Position numbers and translations under genes: made by a program. Source: Sulfurimonas indica (lineage in GTDB: Bacteria > Campylobacterota > Campylobacteria > Campylobacterales > Sulfurimonadaceae). Taken from it: a DNA stretch of 64,000 nucleotides. Of the stretch, positions 35,011-61,027 are shown piece by piece; the stretch's first letter is position 1, and each line of letters begins with the position of its first letter. The DNA is taken from positions 1-64,000 of the forward strand of contig NZ_SDID01000004.1 of assembly GCF_009192995.1 (NCBI RefSeq). The letters run 5' to 3'. The notes beneath the pieces were generated by a model, which did not search any database, was not told the DNA's origin, and was given only the letters and a program-made list of their open reading frames with translations.

Positions 35011-36819
35011 ATGCAACTCACAAAAGAGCAAGAAGCAAAATTTAAAAAACTTGGTATTAATTCTATTAGCGAGCTTGCTCTTTTAATTCCCCACTCTTAT
35101 GAAGATTATCGGCTTCAAGAGAAGCTCATACCTCACGCCAACCAACTTATTGATGCAACTGTTGAGTCTGTTTATCGTGCTCCTAATTCCATTCAGATAA
35201 CCTTTTTCGCACATAATTTTGGACATAGAGTAACAGGTGTTTTGTTTCGTCCCAAGCCTTATATGATGCATCAGTTTAAGGTAGGGGATAGAGATTACTA
35301 TTATGGAATGATAGAGTGTAAGATAGGAAACTGTTCTATGAGTATGCCAAGAAAAGTTACAAGTATTGGACAAATTACTCCTAAGTATAAATCTGCACTC
35401 AGGAGCGATGTGATGTTTCGCCTTACTCGTGAACTTCTTAACTTTGAGAACTTGCGTGAGGAGAGGCTTCCTGAGAAGATTATAGAAGAAGTTTTAGCAC
35501 TTCATTTTCCAACTCTAGAAGTTCTTCAAAACAGAGAGTTAAGCCAAGAAGCTGTAGAAGCTTTAAAATATTTGGAACTCTATAATTATATGAAACAACT
35601 CTCTCTCAAACGAAGATATTTTCAGCCATTGGTATCAAAGAGAGGTTTTTATGATGCTTTTGTGAACTCATTACCGTTTCAACTTACAGATGAGCAGCTA
35701 AAGACGATACAAGATATACAAAAAGATTTCGCAAAAAGTGTAGCAGCAAAACGTATGATAGTCGGAGATGTTGGTAGTGGTAAGACTATGGTTATCTTAG
35801 CAGCTGCAATTATGATGATGCCACAGAGGTCAATTCTGATGGCTCCCACAACTATTTTAGCAAACCAGCTTTATGAGGAGGCTCTTAAATATTTGCCACG
35901 AATGAAGATAGCCCTTGTGGCAAATAAAAGGAAAAAAGCTTCGTTAGAGGAGTATGATTTTATCATTGGAACACATGCCCTCTTGTACAGAGAATTACCA
36001 GAAGCAGCACTCGTTATGGTTGATGAACAGCATCGTTTTGGAACACAACAGCGAAATATGCTGGAAAAACTGATATCAAAGGGAGAAAAAAAGCCTCATT
36101 TCCTGCAATTTTCTGCCACTCCAATTCCTCGAACTTTAGCGATGATAGAGTCTGCACATATTGATGTGAGTCTTATTACATCTACACCTTATAAAAAAGA
36201 TATTGATTCTCGAGTCATTCATAAGAGTGATTTTAAAGATTTGCTATTACATATAAAAAGAGAGATAGAGAAAAAAAATCAGATTCTTATTGTTTATCCT
36301 TTGGTTGAGCAGAGTGAAGTCTTGGATTATCAGAGCATTGATGAAGCACGTGAGTACTGGGAGAGAAATTTTAAAAATGTTTATATTACCCATGGAAAAG
36401 ATAAAGAAAAAGAGCAGGTTTTGCTTGATTTTCGAGATAATGGAGATATCCTTATCTCAACTACTGTAGTAGAAGTAGGTATATCACTGCCAAGGCTTAC
36501 AACAGTTGTTATTGTAGGAGCTGAGAGATTAGGACTTTCAACTTTGCATCAATTGCGTGGGCGTGTGAGTCGCACAGGGCTTAAAGGTTACTGTTTTTTA
36601 TATACGAATCAAAAAAGCTCGGAACGACTTGATGAGTTTGTAAAGACCAGCAGTGGTTTTGATATAGCAAATCTTGATCTAAAGTATAGAAAAAGTGGTG
36701 ATCTGCTTAAGGGAATAAATCAAAGTGGTTCACAATTTAAGTGGGTGGATTTTATAGAAGATACTCAGATAGTACAAAAGGTAAAAGAAGATCTGCTTCT
36801 TTTACCTAAAAGTGATTAA
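35011..36819 (+). CDS. recG: ATP-dependent DNA helicase RecG
   Basis: A 602-residue superfamily 2 helicase that regresses stalled replication forks and moves branched DNA. An OB-fold wedge region (60-150) is followed by helicase motifs: Walker A GDVGSGKT at 252-259, DEQH at 338-341 then RFGTQQR, FSATPIPRTLA, and STTVVEVGISLPRLT and HQLRGRVSRTG near the end. It is about 90 residues shorter than E. coli RecG, with a reduced N-terminus. The ribosome binding site before the ATG is weak. The end overlaps hpf by four bases. Confidence 0.95.
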   Translation: MQLTKEQEAKFKKLGINSISELALLIPHSYEDYRLQEKLIPHANQLIDATVESVYRAPNSIQITFFAHNFGHRVTGVLFRPKPYMMHQFKVGDRDYYYGMIECKIGNCSMSMPRKVTSIGQITPKYKSALRSDVMFRLTRELLNFENLREERLPEKIIEEVLALHFPTLEVLQNRELSQEAVEALKYLELYNYMKQLSLKRRYFQPLVSKRGFYDAFVNSLPFQLTDEQLKTIQDIQKDFAKSVAAKRMIVGDVGSGKTMVILAAAIMMMPQRSILMAPTTILANQLYEEALKYLPRMKIALVANKRKKASLEEYDFIIGTHALLYRELPEAALVMVDEQHRFGTQQRNMLEKLISKGEKKPHFLQFSATPIPRTLAMIESAHIDVSLITSTPYKKDIDSRVIHKSDFKDLLLHIKREIEKKNQILIVYPLVEQSEVLDYQSIDEAREYWERNFKNVYITHGKDKEKEQVLLDFRDNGDILISTTVVEVGISLPRLTTVVIVGAERLGLSTLHQLRGRVSRTGLKGYCFLYTNQKSSERLDEFVKTSSGFDIANLDLKYRKSGDLLKGINQSGSQFKWVDFIEDTQIVQKVKEDLLLLPKSD

Positions 36820-37349
36820 TAAAGACCGAATTTACCATCATTTCTTTTGTAAAGAACACGTGTTTTTTGCTCATTGTCTACAAAAATTTCAAACATTTTT
36901 CCACTCTCTTTGAGGTCATTTAAAACATCTTCAACCTCACGTGGTTTGTAAAGATTAAGCTCAACAGGAATGATTTCATCTTCCATCTCTGAAGCTGCTT
37001 CTTTTACATCAACGATCTCAGCTTTTGCTTCATTGAGACCTACTTTTTGATGGTCAACTTCTCTGTCATGGAGGCGACGCATCGCTTTTTGTGCTCTCTC
37101 TGTTGCTAAATCGATCGCTGCATAGAGGTCTTGGTCATTTTGTTTGATAACAATAGTGTTTTTATGCGCTAGATTAATAACAAACTCAACAATAGAGTGC
37201 TCTTTGCCTTTTTTGGATTGTGTTGATACAATCACATTGACTGAAATGATATCAAGATTAAATTTTTTAAGTGTCTCAATAGAAGCAGTGATATGCTCTT
37301 TGATAGGCTCTGTTAGTTCTATATTTCTTCCTGTCATTGATATATTCAT
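36816..37349 (-). CDS. hpf: long-form ribosome hibernation promoting factor
   Basis: A 177-residue HPF/RaiA protein that pairs idle ribosomes. Residues 1-100 are the S30AE domain (MNISMTGRNIELTEPIKEHI; HDREVDHQK), which sits in the decoding site. Residues 118-177 form the C-terminal dimerisation domain (LYKPREVEDVLNDLKESG; FVDNEQKTRVLYKRNDGKFG), so this is the long form that makes 100S ribosomes alone. It has its own promoter and is convergent with recG. Confidence 0.95.
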   Translation of the reverse strand: MNISMTGRNIELTEPIKEHITASIETLKKFNLDIISVNVIVSTQSKKGKEHSIVEFVINLAHKNTIVIKQNDQDLYAAIDLATERAQKAMRRLHDREVDHQKVGLNEAKAEIVDVKEAASEMEDEIIPVELNLYKPREVEDVLNDLKESGKMFEIFVDNEQKTRVLYKRNDGKFGLY

Positions 37350-37407: not shown

Positions 37408-37890
37408 TTATAATTTTTGTATAGTTCTTCTAAAATATCTTACAGGCTCAGATGTAACATTTCTATCAGTAGGGACACTGACTGTTACATCGAGGATAAC
37501 AGTACCATCTGAAGCAGTGTTGGTTGTATTGGCATAAACTACACCGGCTGCTGTAGCATTACCGTCACAGGAACTACCGGCAACTGTAATATAACTCATA
37601 GATGCATTAATATCATAAATATTGTTATAGGAGAAGTTAATGCTGCTGATGCTACATGGATTTGCTTGAGACAGTTTTAACATGACATACTCGGTAGCAC
37701 TATGAGAAAGTATCGATGCTTGCTCATAGAGGTAGAGATCTGTGGTTTTCTTTGTTGTTTGTGACGTAAGGGCGAGAGAAAGTGCTAAAATGGTTGCAAT
37801 GATGACAATAACAGAAATAGCCATAATCATTGCTATACCACTTCTTTTCATTAATGAAGAGTTCTTTAATAAATTGTTTTTTCTTTGCAT
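37408..37890 (-). CDS. minor pseudopilin of MshP/PilX/GspK type, 160 aa
   Basis: GAGGAG lies 8 bases before the ATG at 37890, which overlaps the upstream gene by 25 bases. The basic leader ends KRSG and is followed by the hydrophobic helix IAMIMAISVIVIIATILALS, a prepilin peptidase site. Position +5 is not Glu (IAMIM), as in GspK and other tip pseudopilins that start an assembly. The rest (40-160) is small, with a disulfide-prone pair of cysteines (NPCSIS; SSCDGN). It is the third pilin-like gene after the giant secreted protein. Confidence 0.8.
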   Translation of the reverse strand: MQRKNNLLKNSSLMKRSGIAMIMAISVIVIIATILALSLALTSQTTKKTTDLYLYEQASILSHSATEYVMLKLSQANPCSISSINFSYNNIYDINASMSYITVAGSSCDGNATAAGVVYANTTNTASDGTVILDVTVSVPTDRNVTSEPVRYFRRTIQKL

Positions 37891-38768
37891 AGCGCATACT
37901 CCTCACCTGTTAATTCACTTTTTGCACATACCTGAACCTTTATCAAAGAACCTGCGGAGCGGAATCTAAAAGTATTTATACCTTCTGCTAAAAGGACTTT
38001 TTTACCATTATTTACATAAGTTTCACCTTTCCAAGGTCTATAGTCATAATAAAAATAGAGATTACCTATGTGTGATGTGTCATTGTAGTCTCCAAGTTCA
38101 ATTGCATAGGCTGTCCAAGCAAGTTTATAATATTCAAAAACTTCTTTTCCACTAAAGTCTGAACCATTAGGTAATAATTCATCTATATTTGTTCCTGCTT
38201 GAATAGGGTGAAGCGTCTCATTTTGATCATTAATGGGACCTTCGTATCCCCATGGATTTGCAGCAGAAAGATAGGAACCGATGAAATAAATAGCAGTATC
38301 ATTTACTGTAGCATTATTAACATAGGAAAGAATACCGATTTGAGTGTTCAGTGCATTTGTATCGGTCGCCGGGGAGATTAGTTTTGTAGCAGTTGAAGCA
38401 TTTAGATCAATAACTCCACTCCATAAAGGAGCATTTGTTCCTCGAAAACCATCAGTGTCTGCTGAAATCCACTCTAAAACAGTAGCATTTGGGTCAGAGA
38501 GACCAGTATCACTAAGATAATTATAGTCATTTATTATTAAATTTCTTGAGATAATAGAATTTTTTATACGATACTCTAAGCGTTTCGCGATAAACTCAAC
38601 TGCAGCAGCACTCTTCGACTGTAGATCATTGTTGATTTTTGAAAATATAAAACTTTCATACGCTTGGGCAATAAATTCTACACCAAACTTTCCTAATATT
38701 CCCATAATGACAATAACAAAAATAAGTTCGAGCATACTAAATGCATTACGTCTGTTTTTAAACATCAT
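37866..38768 (-). CDS. minor pseudopilin of MshO/PulJ type, 300 aa
   Basis: Begins MMFKNRRNAFSMLELIFVIV: a short basic leader, a processing site before FSMLE with Glu at +5, and the hydrophobic helix of type IV pilins. At 300 residues it is larger than a major pilin and fits the GspJ/MshO class. The globular part is rich in Asn, Tyr and Asp (ELGDYNDTSHIGNLYFYYDY), and two cysteines near the end (VCAKSELTGEEYALC) could form a disulfide loop. The ATG overlaps the stop of the preceding pilin gene, so translation is coupled. Confidence 0.82.
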   Translation of the reverse strand: MMFKNRRNAFSMLELIFVIVIMGILGKFGVEFIAQAYESFIFSKINNDLQSKSAAAVEFIAKRLEYRIKNSIISRNLIINDYNYLSDTGLSDPNATVLEWISADTDGFRGTNAPLWSGVIDLNASTATKLISPATDTNALNTQIGILSYVNNATVNDTAIYFIGSYLSAANPWGYEGPINDQNETLHPIQAGTNIDELLPNGSDFSGKEVFEYYKLAWTAYAIELGDYNDTSHIGNLYFYYDYRPWKGETYVNNGKKVLLAEGINTFRFRSAGSLIKVQVCAKSELTGEEYALCKEKTIY

Positions 38769-39415
38769 TAAAAAATCCTACTTTCAGGCTTTACTTCACC
38801 GATATTTGCAGTATAGGCACGTAGCACTACTACCGTGTTTCCTGAACTATCTGTAATTTTTATTTCAGTCTCTTTAAGGTTAGAGTTATTTGTTTCTTGT
38901 CCAAACTGTATATAAGAATTAGGAGATATACATTGTGTGACAGTTGCTGTTGCATAATAGCTGTTTTTATATGTAGCGCTACCTGTTCCTGCGCTACCAG
39001 TTTCAAATATTAGTCTATTACTATAGATACTAGATGCATATTCGACTGATGTCGCATCACCAACTGTATTTACTACTGTTGAATTATTGTCTAAACATTG
39101 TCTATTTACATGACCAACTCTTTTGAATGGAGGTCCTCCGATAGTACAATCTCCTGTATTTACAACCCTTGAATAGCCACCTGAGATACTATTGTCTTCT
39201 GCTGAGTTAACATCCCAGTAGTATGTTGTAGACTCATTTAAAATGGCCTCTGCAGCAAATATAGCTTCTTGAATGATATTGTTTTCAATCCCTTTTGTCG
39301 TTGTTTGAATCATCATGGGCAAAGAGACAATTGATATTGCAATAATGACTATTGCAAATATCAACTCAATCATTGTAAAAGCATTTTTTTGAAGAGATAA
39401 ATGTTTTCTTACCAC
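38768..39415 (-). CDS. minor pseudopilin of MshD/GspI type, 215 aa
   Basis: The start is GTG at 39415, with AGGAG six bases upstream; the overlapping ATG at 39417 is in the frame of the giant gene. The leader MVRKHLSLQKNA is followed by FTMIELIFAIVIIAISIVSL, a type IV pilin signature with Glu at +5. The globular part carries four cysteines (TGDCTIGG, RQCLD, TQCIS among them) and is rich in Ser, Thr and Asn. It overlaps the giant gene by 7 bases and the next pilin by one, so all four genes form one operon. Confidence 0.83.
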   Translation of the reverse strand: MVRKHLSLQKNAFTMIELIFAIVIIAISIVSLPMMIQTTTKGIENNIIQEAIFAAEAILNESTTYYWDVNSAEDNSISGGYSRVVNTGDCTIGGPPFKRVGHVNRQCLDNNSTVVNTVGDATSVEYASSIYSNRLIFETGSAGTGSATYKNSYYATATVTQCISPNSYIQFGQETNNSNLKETEIKITDSSGNTVVVLRAYTANIGEVKPESRIF

Positions 39416-42400
39416 ATTATTCTCCTATTTGTTTTGCCTGCAGCTTCAGTATGCGTTGTCGTATTGTCTTCATATTTACCACTCCATCCACCATCACCTA
39501 CAAACTGGATGATAAAAGTATTTGCTGTTGCATTTGCATCAGTATCATTGTTGATAAGCCAAGGAGATGATTGCATCTGCATAATAGCATCATATGGCAA
39601 TGGACCACTATATTCAATCAGCGCTTCTGTTTCATATTTATTTGCTGTGATATTTCTAGTAGCCACTTCATTTACATTACCAGTAGCTGCAATTTCTGTA
39701 ATCGTGCCTATGGTGCCATCTGTACCATCTGCAAGCCATCCGCCATCAATTTTATCATGATTTCGATTTTCGAACCATCTAACATCAGCAACTTGCCCAG
39801 CCCCACTTGGTAGATTGAGAGTATCACTACATGTTGTTGTACTAGGATTACAGTAAATAACGTAACTAATTAGCTCTTTAATATTATTATTATTTGTTGC
39901 ATTCATTCCTGTTTTACAAGGTTTTTGATTACAAATAACCGTAATTTTTGGAGCAATTGTACGACCATAATAGTGTAGAACTCTCTGATTGACAGATACA
40001 TTCCCTTCAGCATATTTATTGTTTGTGAGATCAGCATTGAAAAGTGTTGCATTGTCATCAACACTTATAGTTGTAAAGTTAATATCCTCAGGGTTTGCTG
40101 TTACATTTACATCTCTATCAAAATTGAGATTGGTCACTATCTGTGTTGTTCCATTCATATTTTTATGGAAGTAGGCACTTGTTGTTGTAAATGTAGGGTT
40201 TAGAGTTGTATTTCCTGCTGCTATTGTTTGATTGATATCATTTGCAGAGACAATCGTACCATTAATATCTTGATTGTGTACTCTGTAACTGTATCTCAGT
40301 GCTGTATTTGTTGTCGCTGTTTTGCCAATCTCAAGATTCATTGGTTTAGCAAAACATCCTGTAACATAATTGCTTAGAGGTGTTGTGCTATTTTTACCTA
40401 TAGCTGATATCGTTGTATTTAAGTGTACAGACATATTTTCATCTTGAGCAACATTTGCCATATAAACGAACGGTTTAAATGTTGTTGGTGGTGTAACATT
40501 CCCTGTACGCAGTGTTACATTGTTGCTGACACTGTATTGATATGGATGGAAGGTTACATTGAAATCATTATACTGTACATTTGTACTTGGGTTAAGATGT
40601 GTTGTACTAATTTCACAACCATTGTTTGTGGCTGCATTTACTAATTGAGTTGCTGAAGAATTTTGCACACAGTCGAGAGTAAGAAAAAAGTATGGACTGA
40701 CATGGTGTGTCATAAATGTTGGATTACTATCAACTGCGGTCCATGTTTTATCTACAAGATGAAGTCGATATTCGCCCACTTGAGCTACTGAAGTATTTGT
40801 ATCTACTTCACCATTGATAAAACGAATCTCTAGTGATTTGTTATCATCATCATTACATGCACCTGTTGTAATACTTGTTCTTGGCTCCCATCTATACTCT
40901 GCAATATCATTTGGTGTTGTTGTGTTAAATGAACGAGTATAACCTAGTGAAGAGATATTATTAATATGATTACTTGCATTAATCTCAATGTTATATTTGT
41001 AATCAGCTGCTAAATCAACTACTGGTGCTGTTGCCCCAACTGCACCAGAATAATTAGTTGTTAGTCTACTTTGACTTGTCGGTGCAGATTGGTTTTGATC
41101 ATCAAGGTTTAGCATGAATGCTTCTGGACGGATCGAAAAATTATCACGTGAACATACAAGTCTTGTATTGATACCATAGAGACACTCCATACATGCAGTA
41201 TATTGAGCTTTTGAAATATATGTTCCGGCATTACCACATGCTACGGCAACTTGTGTTGTTGTTACGCTGGATGCACCTACTGGAAAAGTTACCGCTTGTG
41301 AACAGGTACCGACATCTTGAACTAACTCTGTAAAATTATCAATCATATACTCATCATTAACTGAATCATACGTATGTTGTATAAGAGAACTGTTTCCATC
41401 ATTTGTAGTATTGTATGAAACTCTAAATGCGGCATTTTGTTTTGCTATACTATAAAACTCTGAACTTGTAAGGAGTTTTGTAGCTCCTTCGAGTATTGCA
41501 TTATCAAGAGCTGCCTTATTAAATTGTGTTGAGGTAGTATTGTTATCAAAGGTTACCCAAACTCTTTTTGAAATAGAACTAGCAAGTTCCATACAGGATG
41601 CATTTGTATCATGAAATGCTGAAGCGTCAATCATCTCTACTGCAACTATTGTAGAAGTTTCTTTTAATTCATCAAGATTTACAGGATCCATGGATAAGAC
41701 TTTAAAATTACCCACTCTTTGTGTTACCTGAGTTGGTAAGTTATAGTATTCATTGGAACCACCAGTATCATGGTTATAATAGTTATTATGAACAATATTA
41801 AAGATACCTTTAGCCGGAGCATATTTGAAGTTTGAAGTAGAACAGATTTCCATATTTTGACCAAGTTGTAGAGTATAAGGGATTGTTACACCATTTAATG
41901 TTAGGTTGTAGTTGGCTCTAACATCTATGGTCCCATTAAGGTCAGAGATTAAAGGATCCAGACTATAGTAAACATAAAAGTGTTCATTTGCTTGAATAGT
42001 ACCAATATAAATACCTTTAATAAAACTGTCAGAAACTGTTAAAGAACTATCAGAAACAGGTTGAGGAATTAAGTCTCCTATCGCTGCTACTTTTGTTGTG
42101 TTTCGTATATAAGTTGTTTGCGATGTATTGATATCAAGAATACTTACATTCATATCTGTAACTTCTAAATCAGAATCAACAAGATTACGAATAAATATAG
42201 TCATCTCTATATCTTCGTGAGGAAACACTGTACCTGTTAGGCGTGGCATTTTAGAACCATCATTTTTCTCTGTAAAATAGACACCTTGTTGTTTATAGGC
42301 ATAGTCATAACAGAATTTTGGGGCATAAAGTTCAGTTGCAAAGACAAGCATACTTGGGGTAATATAGTCATTATTAGATTCCCACTGAATATATAAAGAG

Positions 42401-43572
42401 GTCAGATTTGGATTGGCGTCCCTATATCCTTCCATCAGTGCTGAAACGTCGAAAGTATCAACATCGACACCATCATTGTTTATCTGTAAATTATTACTTG
42501 AACCATTAATGTCATCCCGTGTAATACCTGTTAGTTTTCCATCAAATATATTACTCTCGTCAATGCCTGTTGGAACAGGCATATTGTCATAGTTGATACC
42601 ATCAGGACTTATCTGTATTCTGTCATATGCCCATGTACTACCATCTCTATGCCCATATAGATACTCACCTTCGCCTGAGAAAAGAGAGAGTGTTGCATTG
42701 ACGGTATTTTCTTTTGGTAAGATAAAGTCTGTTATTGTAAAAGGATCACTTGGATTATCAATAATATCAAACCCGCTGTAAACAGAGATATTACGCATTT
42801 TTCCTGACGAATTTTCAGCATAAATAACGACTAAAGACCATCCACCAAAAACACCGGGACTTGGTTCTCTACCTTCATCAGTTGTTAAGTTTGCTACAGT
42901 AAAAACATGTTTTCCATCACTTTGAACTTCTGAACTTATAATACTTGTGACATCGGCAAAAGCTGCATAGGTTGTACCGTCACTACTGTTATAAGTATAG
43001 ATGGTATCAGCAACAACATTTTGGTATGCATTGCTATCTACTTTTAATTTTATATGATCTGCATTTGTATTAAGTAGTTCTGTTTCTGAAAAGTTACTGC
43101 CGTAGGTGCCGTCACTTGTTGTCTGGTAGCTAAATCCACTACCATCTTCATAGCCAAAACGAAGATCATACTCACTATCAGCACTAATTCTTCCTTGCCA
43201 AAAAAGACCTGCCCAAAGAACACCTTTTCCGCCTGTTGAAGGTGTATCGAAACTTGTTGGGATGGTAATATATGAAGAGGTGGAGTTCCATGTTGAACTA
43301 TCATCATCAATATCGATGTATTTACTTACATGCAGGTTACTTGTTATTAATTCATAGTCGGTCATTCCATGGCATGTACCACCATATCCATCAGTTTTTT
43401 CTGTCAGACACATAACAGTATTCCCTGCAATGGCATAGTTCCCTTGCACATTGTAGGTGTCTGCCGGGTTGACCTTGTCAAAATCATGCAGTACTGCACT
43501 CCAGCCATTGCAAGCAAAAAGTAGTGTAAATAGAGAGAGGAGAAATTGTTTTGGTATTGTAAAAGTTTTCAT
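39409..43572 (-). CDS. giant secreted protein of MshQ-like position, 1387 aa
   Basis: The start at 43572 (MKTFTIPKQFLLSLFTLLFA) is chosen because AAGGGG lies 6 bases upstream and it opens a signal peptide ending GWSA; an in-frame start 18 codons upstream lacks both. The mature chain is very rich in Asn, Thr, Asp and Tyr. Residues 30-400 look like a beta-sandwich domain found in large adhesins (GKGVLWAGLFWQGRISADSE; FGGWSLVVIYAEN; RNISVYSGF). Residues 430-600 resemble DUF11-like sandwiches. Around 800 a Cys-rich stretch leads into RDNFSIRPEAF, which recalls MshQ-type C-terminal regions (DUF6701). No anchor helix is visible. With three pseudopilins behind it, it is probably presented by a pilus-like machine. 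Confidence 0.8.
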   Translation of the reverse strand: MKTFTIPKQFLLSLFTLLFACNGWSAVLHDFDKVNPADTYNVQGNYAIAGNTVMCLTEKTDGYGGTCHGMTDYELITSNLHVSKYIDIDDDSSTWNSTSSYITIPTSFDTPSTGGKGVLWAGLFWQGRISADSEYDLRFGYEDGSGFSYQTTSDGTYGSNFSETELLNTNADHIKLKVDSNAYQNVVADTIYTYNSSDGTTYAAFADVTSIISSEVQSDGKHVFTVANLTTDEGREPSPGVFGGWSLVVIYAENSSGKMRNISVYSGFDIIDNPSDPFTITDFILPKENTVNATLSLFSGEGEYLYGHRDGSTWAYDRIQISPDGINYDNMPVPTGIDESNIFDGKLTGITRDDINGSSNNLQINNDGVDVDTFDVSALMEGYRDANPNLTSLYIQWESNNDYITPSMLVFATELYAPKFCYDYAYKQQGVYFTEKNDGSKMPRLTGTVFPHEDIEMTIFIRNLVDSDLEVTDMNVSILDINTSQTTYIRNTTKVAAIGDLIPQPVSDSSLTVSDSFIKGIYIGTIQANEHFYVYYSLDPLISDLNGTIDVRANYNLTLNGVTIPYTLQLGQNMEICSTSNFKYAPAKGIFNIVHNNYYNHDTGGSNEYYNLPTQVTQRVGNFKVLSMDPVNLDELKETSTIVAVEMIDASAFHDTNASCMELASSISKRVWVTFDNNTTSTQFNKAALDNAILEGATKLLTSSEFYSIAKQNAAFRVSYNTTNDGNSSLIQHTYDSVNDEYMIDNFTELVQDVGTCSQAVTFPVGASSVTTTQVAVACGNAGTYISKAQYTACMECLYGINTRLVCSRDNFSIRPEAFMLNLDDQNQSAPTSQSRLTTNYSGAVGATAPVVDLAADYKYNIEINASNHINNISSLGYTRSFNTTTPNDIAEYRWEPRTSITTGACNDDDNKSLEIRFINGEVDTNTSVAQVGEYRLHLVDKTWTAVDSNPTFMTHHVSPYFFLTLDCVQNSSATQLVNAATNNGCEISTTHLNPSTNVQYNDFNVTFHPYQYSVSNNVTLRTGNVTPPTTFKPFVYMANVAQDENMSVHLNTTISAIGKNSTTPLSNYVTGCFAKPMNLEIGKTATTNTALRYSYRVHNQDINGTIVSANDINQTIAAGNTTLNPTFTTTSAYFHKNMNGTTQIVTNLNFDRDVNVTANPEDINFTTISVDDNATLFNADLTNNKYAEGNVSVNQRVLHYYGRTIAPKITVICNQKPCKTGMNATNNNNIKELISYVIYCNPSTTTCSDTLNLPSGAGQVADVRWFENRNHDKIDGGWLADGTDGTIGTITEIAATGNVNEVATRNITANKYETEALIEYSGPLPYDAIMQMQSSPWLINNDTDANATANTFIIQFVGDGGWSGKYEDNTTTHTEAAGKTNRRIMW

Positions 43573-43649
43573 AAGAAACCCCTTTTTGAAGTAAAAATCA
43601 GTGCAGTCAACATTTGGGCTCAGCACTAAAGTTCACTTGTCCTTATTTT

Positions 43650-43655
43650 ATTGTA
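43650..43655 (-). promoter_or_regulatory. promoter of the giant protein/pseudopilin operon
   Basis: On the minus strand TGC-TACAAT is an extended -10 element about 78 bases before the giant gene's start, leaving a leader of about 70 bases. The remainder of 43656-43790 is very T/A-rich with no gene. Confidence 0.5.
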
Positions 43656-60824: not shown

Positions 60825-61027
60825 TATAGTCTGAGTAGTTCGTGTCAGCACGTATATGAGGGTTCTACATATTCATATCGTGAACAAGTAGAGCTAGCGT
60901 GTGCCGATGATCTCGCTTGAGGTATGTTAACTCTGCCAATGAGACTGTCGCCGTCAGCTAGTTCTCTCTTCACCCAAATTCGGCTTTTAGAACCAAGCCA
61001 ATAGTGTGACGGCTACTCGGATTATAT
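60825..61027 (+). ncRNA. ssrS: 6S RNA (purD-linked type)
   Basis: A GC-richer, non-coding stretch of about 200 bases. Its ends pair over 13 positions, ATAGTCTGAGTAG (60826-60838) with CTACTCGGATTAT (61013-61025), followed inward by GTCA with TGAC. That is the long closing stem expected of 6S RNA, which imitates an open promoter and binds the sigma70 polymerase. In Campylobacterales a conserved structured RNA lies in front of purD and has been interpreted as 6S; the position here is the same. The identification rests on location, size and the closing stem. Confidence 0.75.

Follow-up and report, generated by a model that had tools for sequence, protein, structure and literature searches.

A giant exported protein and three minor pilins of Sulfurimonas indica as the putative tip complex of an MSH-type pilus whose other parts are encoded elsewhere

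The window analysed here, a stretch of 64,000 nucleotides at the start of contig NZ_SDID01000004.1 of Sulfurimonas indica, contains a compact cassette in which the gene for a giant exported protein is followed by three genes for pilin-like proteins, referred to below as D, O and P (Table 1). The four minus-strand reading frames are all intact and lie where a preliminary description of this DNA had placed them; from the giant to P, the successive overlaps between genes measure 7, 1 and 25 bases. Use of an upstream GTG would lengthen the giant to 1405 residues. The same description had put the four genes behind one promoter, a claim that we do not carry forward: 47 promoter-like sites are found against 34.6 in shuffled sequences (s.d. 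5.9), a modest excess. No terminator-like site separates P from hpf, such a site being present only after hpf. Possibly, hpf is co-transcribed with the cassette while being no part of the pilus. In most relatives, too, the last pilin gene is followed by hpf in the same orientation.

Table 1. Features of the cassette and other annotated elements of the window
Feature	Position	Strand	Basis or remark
Giant exported protein, 1387 aa from ATG	39409..43572	-	ORF; presumed pilus tip adhesin
Signal-peptide-like N-terminus of giant, starts MKTFTIPKQFLLSLFTLLFACNG	43507..43572	-	read from sequence, putative
Variable N-terminal part of giant, residues 20-414, beta-sandwich model	42331..43515	-	
Ig-like beta-sandwich, residues 415-571, start of giant's conserved core	41860..42330	-	predicted structure
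DUF6701-aligned region of giant, residues 803-1205, motifs CSRDNFSIRPEAF and VGEY	39958..41166	-	mapped via PF20419-matching orthologues
C-terminal tail of giant, residues 1362-1387, ends ..TNRRIMW	39412..39489	-	conserved
MshD-type minor pilin (D), 215 aa, GTG start, Glu at +5	38768..39415	-	ORF, N_methyl match
MshO-type minor pilin (O), 300 aa, Glu at +5	37866..38768	-	ORF, N_methyl match
MshP-type minor pilin (P), 160 aa, without Glu at +5, GspK-like N-terminus	37408..37890	-	weak GspK-model match
hpf, ribosome hibernation factor, same strand as cassette	36816..37349	-	usual downstream neighbour
purD RNA motif (RF01069), elsewhere in window	60888..61022	+	62.5 bits

Both D and O carry a class III prepilin leader and match the N_methyl model. 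In P, mature position +5 is occupied by Met, in agreement with the earlier remark that the smallest pilin lacks Glu at this site, and the distinction holds throughout the family: Glu+5 is found in 72 of 73 D proteins, in all 73 O proteins and in none of 68 P proteins. This combination of leaders with Glu+5 in D and O and its absence in P is the pattern expected of MshD, MshO and MshP. Profile HMMs of the globular parts alone, with the shared N-terminal helix left out, recover D, O and P of single-locus MSH operons (G094 and G115, see below) one-to-one at 59-117 bits, with 59-73 bits for D, 92-117 bits for O and 66-70 bits for P. The five type II secretion system (T2SS) pseudopilins of the same genome and its MshA-like pilins score at most 3.5 bits with these HMMs, which is noise. 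On the strength of these one-to-one matches we assign the pilins to MSH. As type II minor pseudopilins they find no place, being outside the gsp operon and scoring 0 bits or less for GspH-K similarity in their globular parts.

Correspondence with gammaproteobacterial proteins is fainter. Against a single reference, one Aeromonas MSHA locus (L188), MshD matches the D globular HMM weakly (11.2 bits, E 4e-4), and MshO and MshP of this one locus do not match the O and P globular HMMs. When the N-terminal helix is included, the right Aeromonas gene ranks top for each of the three pilins. The names MshD, MshO and MshP given in the preliminary description are therefore kept as putative ones: relative to Vibrio-type MSHA they rest on gene order, size and N-terminus, which agree, and in the globular domains no likeness of O and P to their gammaproteobacterial namesakes can be seen. 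The reference record, NZ_AP026896, is listed as an Aeromonas caviae plasmid; this 4.94-Mb record has the appearance of a chromosome, and a transposase-like gene splits its mshQ.

The giant divides into a variable N-terminal part and a conserved core. Across relatives, residues 20-414 have low occupancy and identity, and their model (pLDDT 72.7, pTM 0.83) is a rough one only. For the core (residues 415-1387) the model is confident (pLDDT 88.5, pTM 0.80) and shows beta-rich domains arranged in a chain; the Ig-like first of these superimposes on TTHA1873 and on Gram-positive pilin and adhesin domains (VIA Z 8-11, rmsd 2.5-3.9, 113-139 residues aligned). For the N-terminal domain, a PNGase F-like fold was the best Foldseek candidate (E 4e-5), but VIA Z did not exceed 5.5 and we consequently claim no fold. 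A sequence search of the PDB with the giant's profile produced no match. At the other end of the protein, the final Trp is nearly invariant among relatives, and the last 26 residues, which are conserved, are disordered in the model of the lone chain (pLDDT <50 at model residues 948-973); such a segment would suit a role as docking tail. The giants of some relatives carry Big_9, cadherin-like, Calx-beta or DUF11 domains, and size and architecture are diverse.

Relatives of the giant were detected by profile search in 78 of 99 related genomes. A GTDB scan yielded 138 loci, 79 of which were kept, nearly all of them Campylobacterota by title. Where enough downstream sequence is available, D-O-P directly follow the giant in 61 of 67 loci, and in four of the six exceptions a second giant in tandem lies between. 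Comparison of gene order across Campylobacterota, proposed earlier as a check, thus finds that the four genes recur together, contrary to the alternative that they do not co-occur in other genomes. The usual site of the cassette in this phylum is between lon/bamD and hpf/recG. In Sulfurovum-type loci a fourth, MshA-like pilin follows P. Tandem giants are seen in L121, L086, L091, L103, L123 and L229, L121 being a duplicated giant-D-O-P cassette, and some Nautiliales-like loci have tandem giants without pilins. An apparent 'pilT' downstream of the L142 cassette was set aside as a spurious weak match to an SRP-GTPase-like protein.

Searches across the whole 2.09-Mb genome, in which the window's contig is denoted C34, found the families of pilus ATPases, platform proteins, secretins and prepilin peptidases represented only on other contigs, bearing out the initial impression that no ATPase, secretin or prepilin peptidase gene lies near the cassette. 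Contig C45 holds a machinery operon in MSHA order, I-J-(K)-L-M-N-x-E-G, with an unassigned gene where K would be expected, another between N and E, and no pilin gene. Its MshL exceeds the curated TIGR02519 cut-off (270 versus 250 bits); MshE, MshG and MshM were assigned by gene order and relatedness, no equivalog cut-off being involved. The MshL secretin, MshM AAA ATPase, MshE and MshG by which we define an MSH system are accordingly present here in conserved order. Three short MshA-like pilins with class III leaders are encoded beside priA on contig C49 and would supply the major pilin of the MSH pilus. A PilT gene is located on contig C51, and the only prepilin peptidase of the genome on contig C1. 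Contig C52 carries a complete T2SS locus with its own pseudopilins G, H, I, J and K, and this is the only other secretin system in the genome; beside it a 2327-residue lipoprotein-like giant is encoded (L057:3173-10156). Of the two findings anticipated as unfavourable to a cassette served from elsewhere, a complete system that already has its own minor pilins does exist in the form of the T2SS; the MSH machinery locus itself has no minor pilins.

With machinery and cassette on different contigs, and with more than one giant or MSH set in genomes G424 and G091, the four genes might be a relic, or the tip set of a different, undetected pilus, that has ceased to function with the split MSH machinery. 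The four frames are nonetheless intact, the set is conserved in 61/67 loci, and the T2SS is the sole other secretin system of the genome, so that we regard this reading as most improbable.

The putative tip genes, detached from the machinery's operon in S. indica, have homologues within it in five other genomes (G091, G094, G115, G424 and G437). In G094, G091, G437 and G115, homologues of giant-D-O-P and one more pilin directly precede mshI-J-L-M-N, and in G094 and G091 the single-locus operon can be followed further, to E, G and a pair of MshA-like pilins. The arrangement in G424 is the same except that P was not detected, and this genome contains a detached cassette as well. Among the genomes examined, no cassette homologues were found inside T2SS operons. 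This operon linkage to mshI-J-L-M-N in five genomes, together with the globular HMM matches, is our chief ground for placing the cassette with MSH rather than with type II secretion. A Legionella adelaidensis plasmid (L189) likewise bears an MSH-like operon, in which four pilin genes stand ahead of mshI-L and MshE.

Genomes at least 90% complete that have no MSH machinery (G010, G067 and G085) also miss the giant; in the fragmented assemblies G023 and G043 the machinery is present and no giant was detected, and in G049 (89% complete, fragmented assembly) the giant is present and MshE and MshL were not detected. G054, which apparently has a cassette and no MSH secretin, was dismissed as a counterexample, since an MshE gene lies there at a contig edge. 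Because nearly every genome of the genus has MSH machinery, this comparison of presence and absence has little power.

An accessory role in type II secretion, with the giant as secreted substrate and with D, O and P as extensions of the pseudopilus, would draw on the full T2SS of the genome and on the GspK-like N-terminus of the P-type pilin; like GspH-K, the three pilins have prepilin N-termini and one member without Glu5. The GspH-K set of this genome is, however, complete and separate: the locus already provides G, H, I, J and K, none of which shares more than the N-terminal helix with D, O or P, their globular domains being unrelated. As homologues of the cassette reside within MSH operons and none was seen in T2SS operons, we consider this account very unlikely. 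The preliminary proposal, a cassette of tip and adhesin served by machinery from other sites, agrees with the MSH machinery on other contigs, the wide conservation of the gene set and the linkage in five genomes. We hold with considerable confidence that the cassette specifies the tip complex of a type IVa-like pilus of the MSH type, the remaining parts of which are encoded elsewhere in the genome.

Does the giant take the place of MshQ, as the preliminary description had it? A direct search with DUF6701 (PF20419, cut-off 27 bits) found no match in the S. indica genome or in 17 giants, which is attributable to the remoteness of the homology; the Aeromonas MshQ, by comparison, matches DUF6701 at 6e-99. 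DUF6701 scores above cut-off in 28 of 397 Campylobacterota genomes. Same-genus giants of G056, G355, G334, G322 and G406 pass it and sit at the identical site, recG-hpf-P-O-D-giant-bamD-lon, and their DUF6701 stretch aligns with about residues 803-1205 of the window's giant. A comparison of the giant core with one Aeromonas MshQ by hhalign was not significant. Since same-site orthologues pass the cut-off, the giant of the window is, on sequence grounds, a remote MshQ relative by way of intermediates, and no family member by its own score; to this extent the earlier placement stands, the part that fails being a DUF6701 match of the protein itself.

Closely related genomes reveal a marked contrast within the cassette. 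Between G032 and G055, identity is 1.00 for D, 0.98 for O and 0.99 for P, with 0.93 for RecG and 0.96 for Lon in the flanks, whereas the giants share 0.66 identity over the last 950 residues (core) and 0.38 before (N-terminal part). Other genome pairs show a similar contrast of conserved pilins and diverged giant. The loci of the first pair (L061 and L064) would constitute a natural allele-exchange pair. Divergence of the giant over 98-100% identical pilins is as expected for an exchangeable tip adhesin, and is consistent with either allelic exchange or fast diversification of a putatively surface-exposed tip protein.

PilY1 has a variable N-terminus and a conserved C-terminal half, as does the giant. 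Together with PilV, PilW, PilX and FimU of type IVa pili, PilY1 also parallels the cassette as a large exported protein encoded with minor pilins; the giant differs in giving no PilY1 family match and in that its conserved half is all-beta and DUF6701-like. By analogy, the giant could prime assembly or retraction rather than adhere, and its variability could reflect escape from phage or immune-like pressure, not choice of ligand. The C-terminal position of the conserved half is compatible with this, PilY1 and minor pilins are reported to prime type IVa pili (in a passage of PMC9815625), and a fast-changing surface protein fits phage escape too. Priming alone leaves the diverse sizes and architectures of the giants (Big_9, cadherin-like, Calx-beta, DUF11) unexplained, and we judge it unlikely, though a serious contender; moreover, the priming and adhesin roles are not mutually exclusive.

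For the tip complex of an MSH-type pilus we infer a physical complex, its location at the tip, and adhesion through a ligand of the giant. In such a scheme the sole prepilin peptidase of the genome would process D, O and P, which would assemble in the inner membrane as a complex of minor pilins, while Sec would export the giant to the periplasm, where it would dock on this complex via its conserved C-terminal half and tail. MshE and MshG would then extend MshA-like pilins beneath the tip complex, this extension would drive the giant through the MshL secretin to the outside, where its variable N-terminal part would meet surfaces, and PilT would retract the pilus.

The system shares with MSHA (mshH-Q; Vibrio, Shewanella and Aeromonas) the D-O-P order and sizes, a Glu5-less P, a giant MshQ-type exported protein, the machinery order I-J-K-L-M-N-E-G and a locus without prepilin peptidase. 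It differs in that the giant is first here and last in MSHA, that the system is split over at least three sites, and that, unlike the Aeromonas protein, its MshE has no N-terminal RLG-type motif. In known MshE proteins this motif binds c-di-GMP. The MshE of the split Campylobacterota MSH (L038:8539-10275) is without it, and single-locus Campylobacterota MshE and Aeromonas MshE retain it (L165:11933-13606, L172:11923-13590 and L188:8609-10321); judging from the protein sequence, the split pilus may have lost c-di-GMP control via MshE.

Putative MSH systems in Epsilonproteobacteria were described by Denise et al. 2019 (PMC6668835). These agree with ours in phylum and system type, and the model used there allows a loner mshA; in that work, by contrast, MSH is almost exclusively single-locus and the main text is without mshQ or mshD. 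For Thiovulum, type IV pilus genes were reported that are akin to those of several types, MSH among them (PMC9938260). One paper counts MshQ with the MSH components whose function is unknown (PMC9815625), and another cites work on MshQ of Aeromonas hydrophila (PMC7439477). In Sulfurovum indicum, mshL is reported to be upregulated on elemental sulfur (PMC10045233). We found no description of a detached giant-first cassette in the open-access literature. The three-way split of the MSH genes and the giant-first, swappable cassette appear new; MSH in the phylum has been known since 2019.

A broader proposal, which we put forward tentatively and at somewhat less than even chances, is that MshQ is an interchangeable tip adhesin of MSH pili and that the Campylobacterota cassette is detached from the machinery and fixed in the chromosome; by exchange of giant alleles, sulfur-oxidizers might change the target of the pilus, possibly sulfur particles, and leave the machine untouched. 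The cassette sets the putative tip apart from the machine, and nature supplies pairs in which the minor pilins are nearly the same and the giants differ, which makes the tip-adhesin hypothesis directly testable. The cassette thereby bears on the attachment of Sulfurimonas and Sulfurovum.
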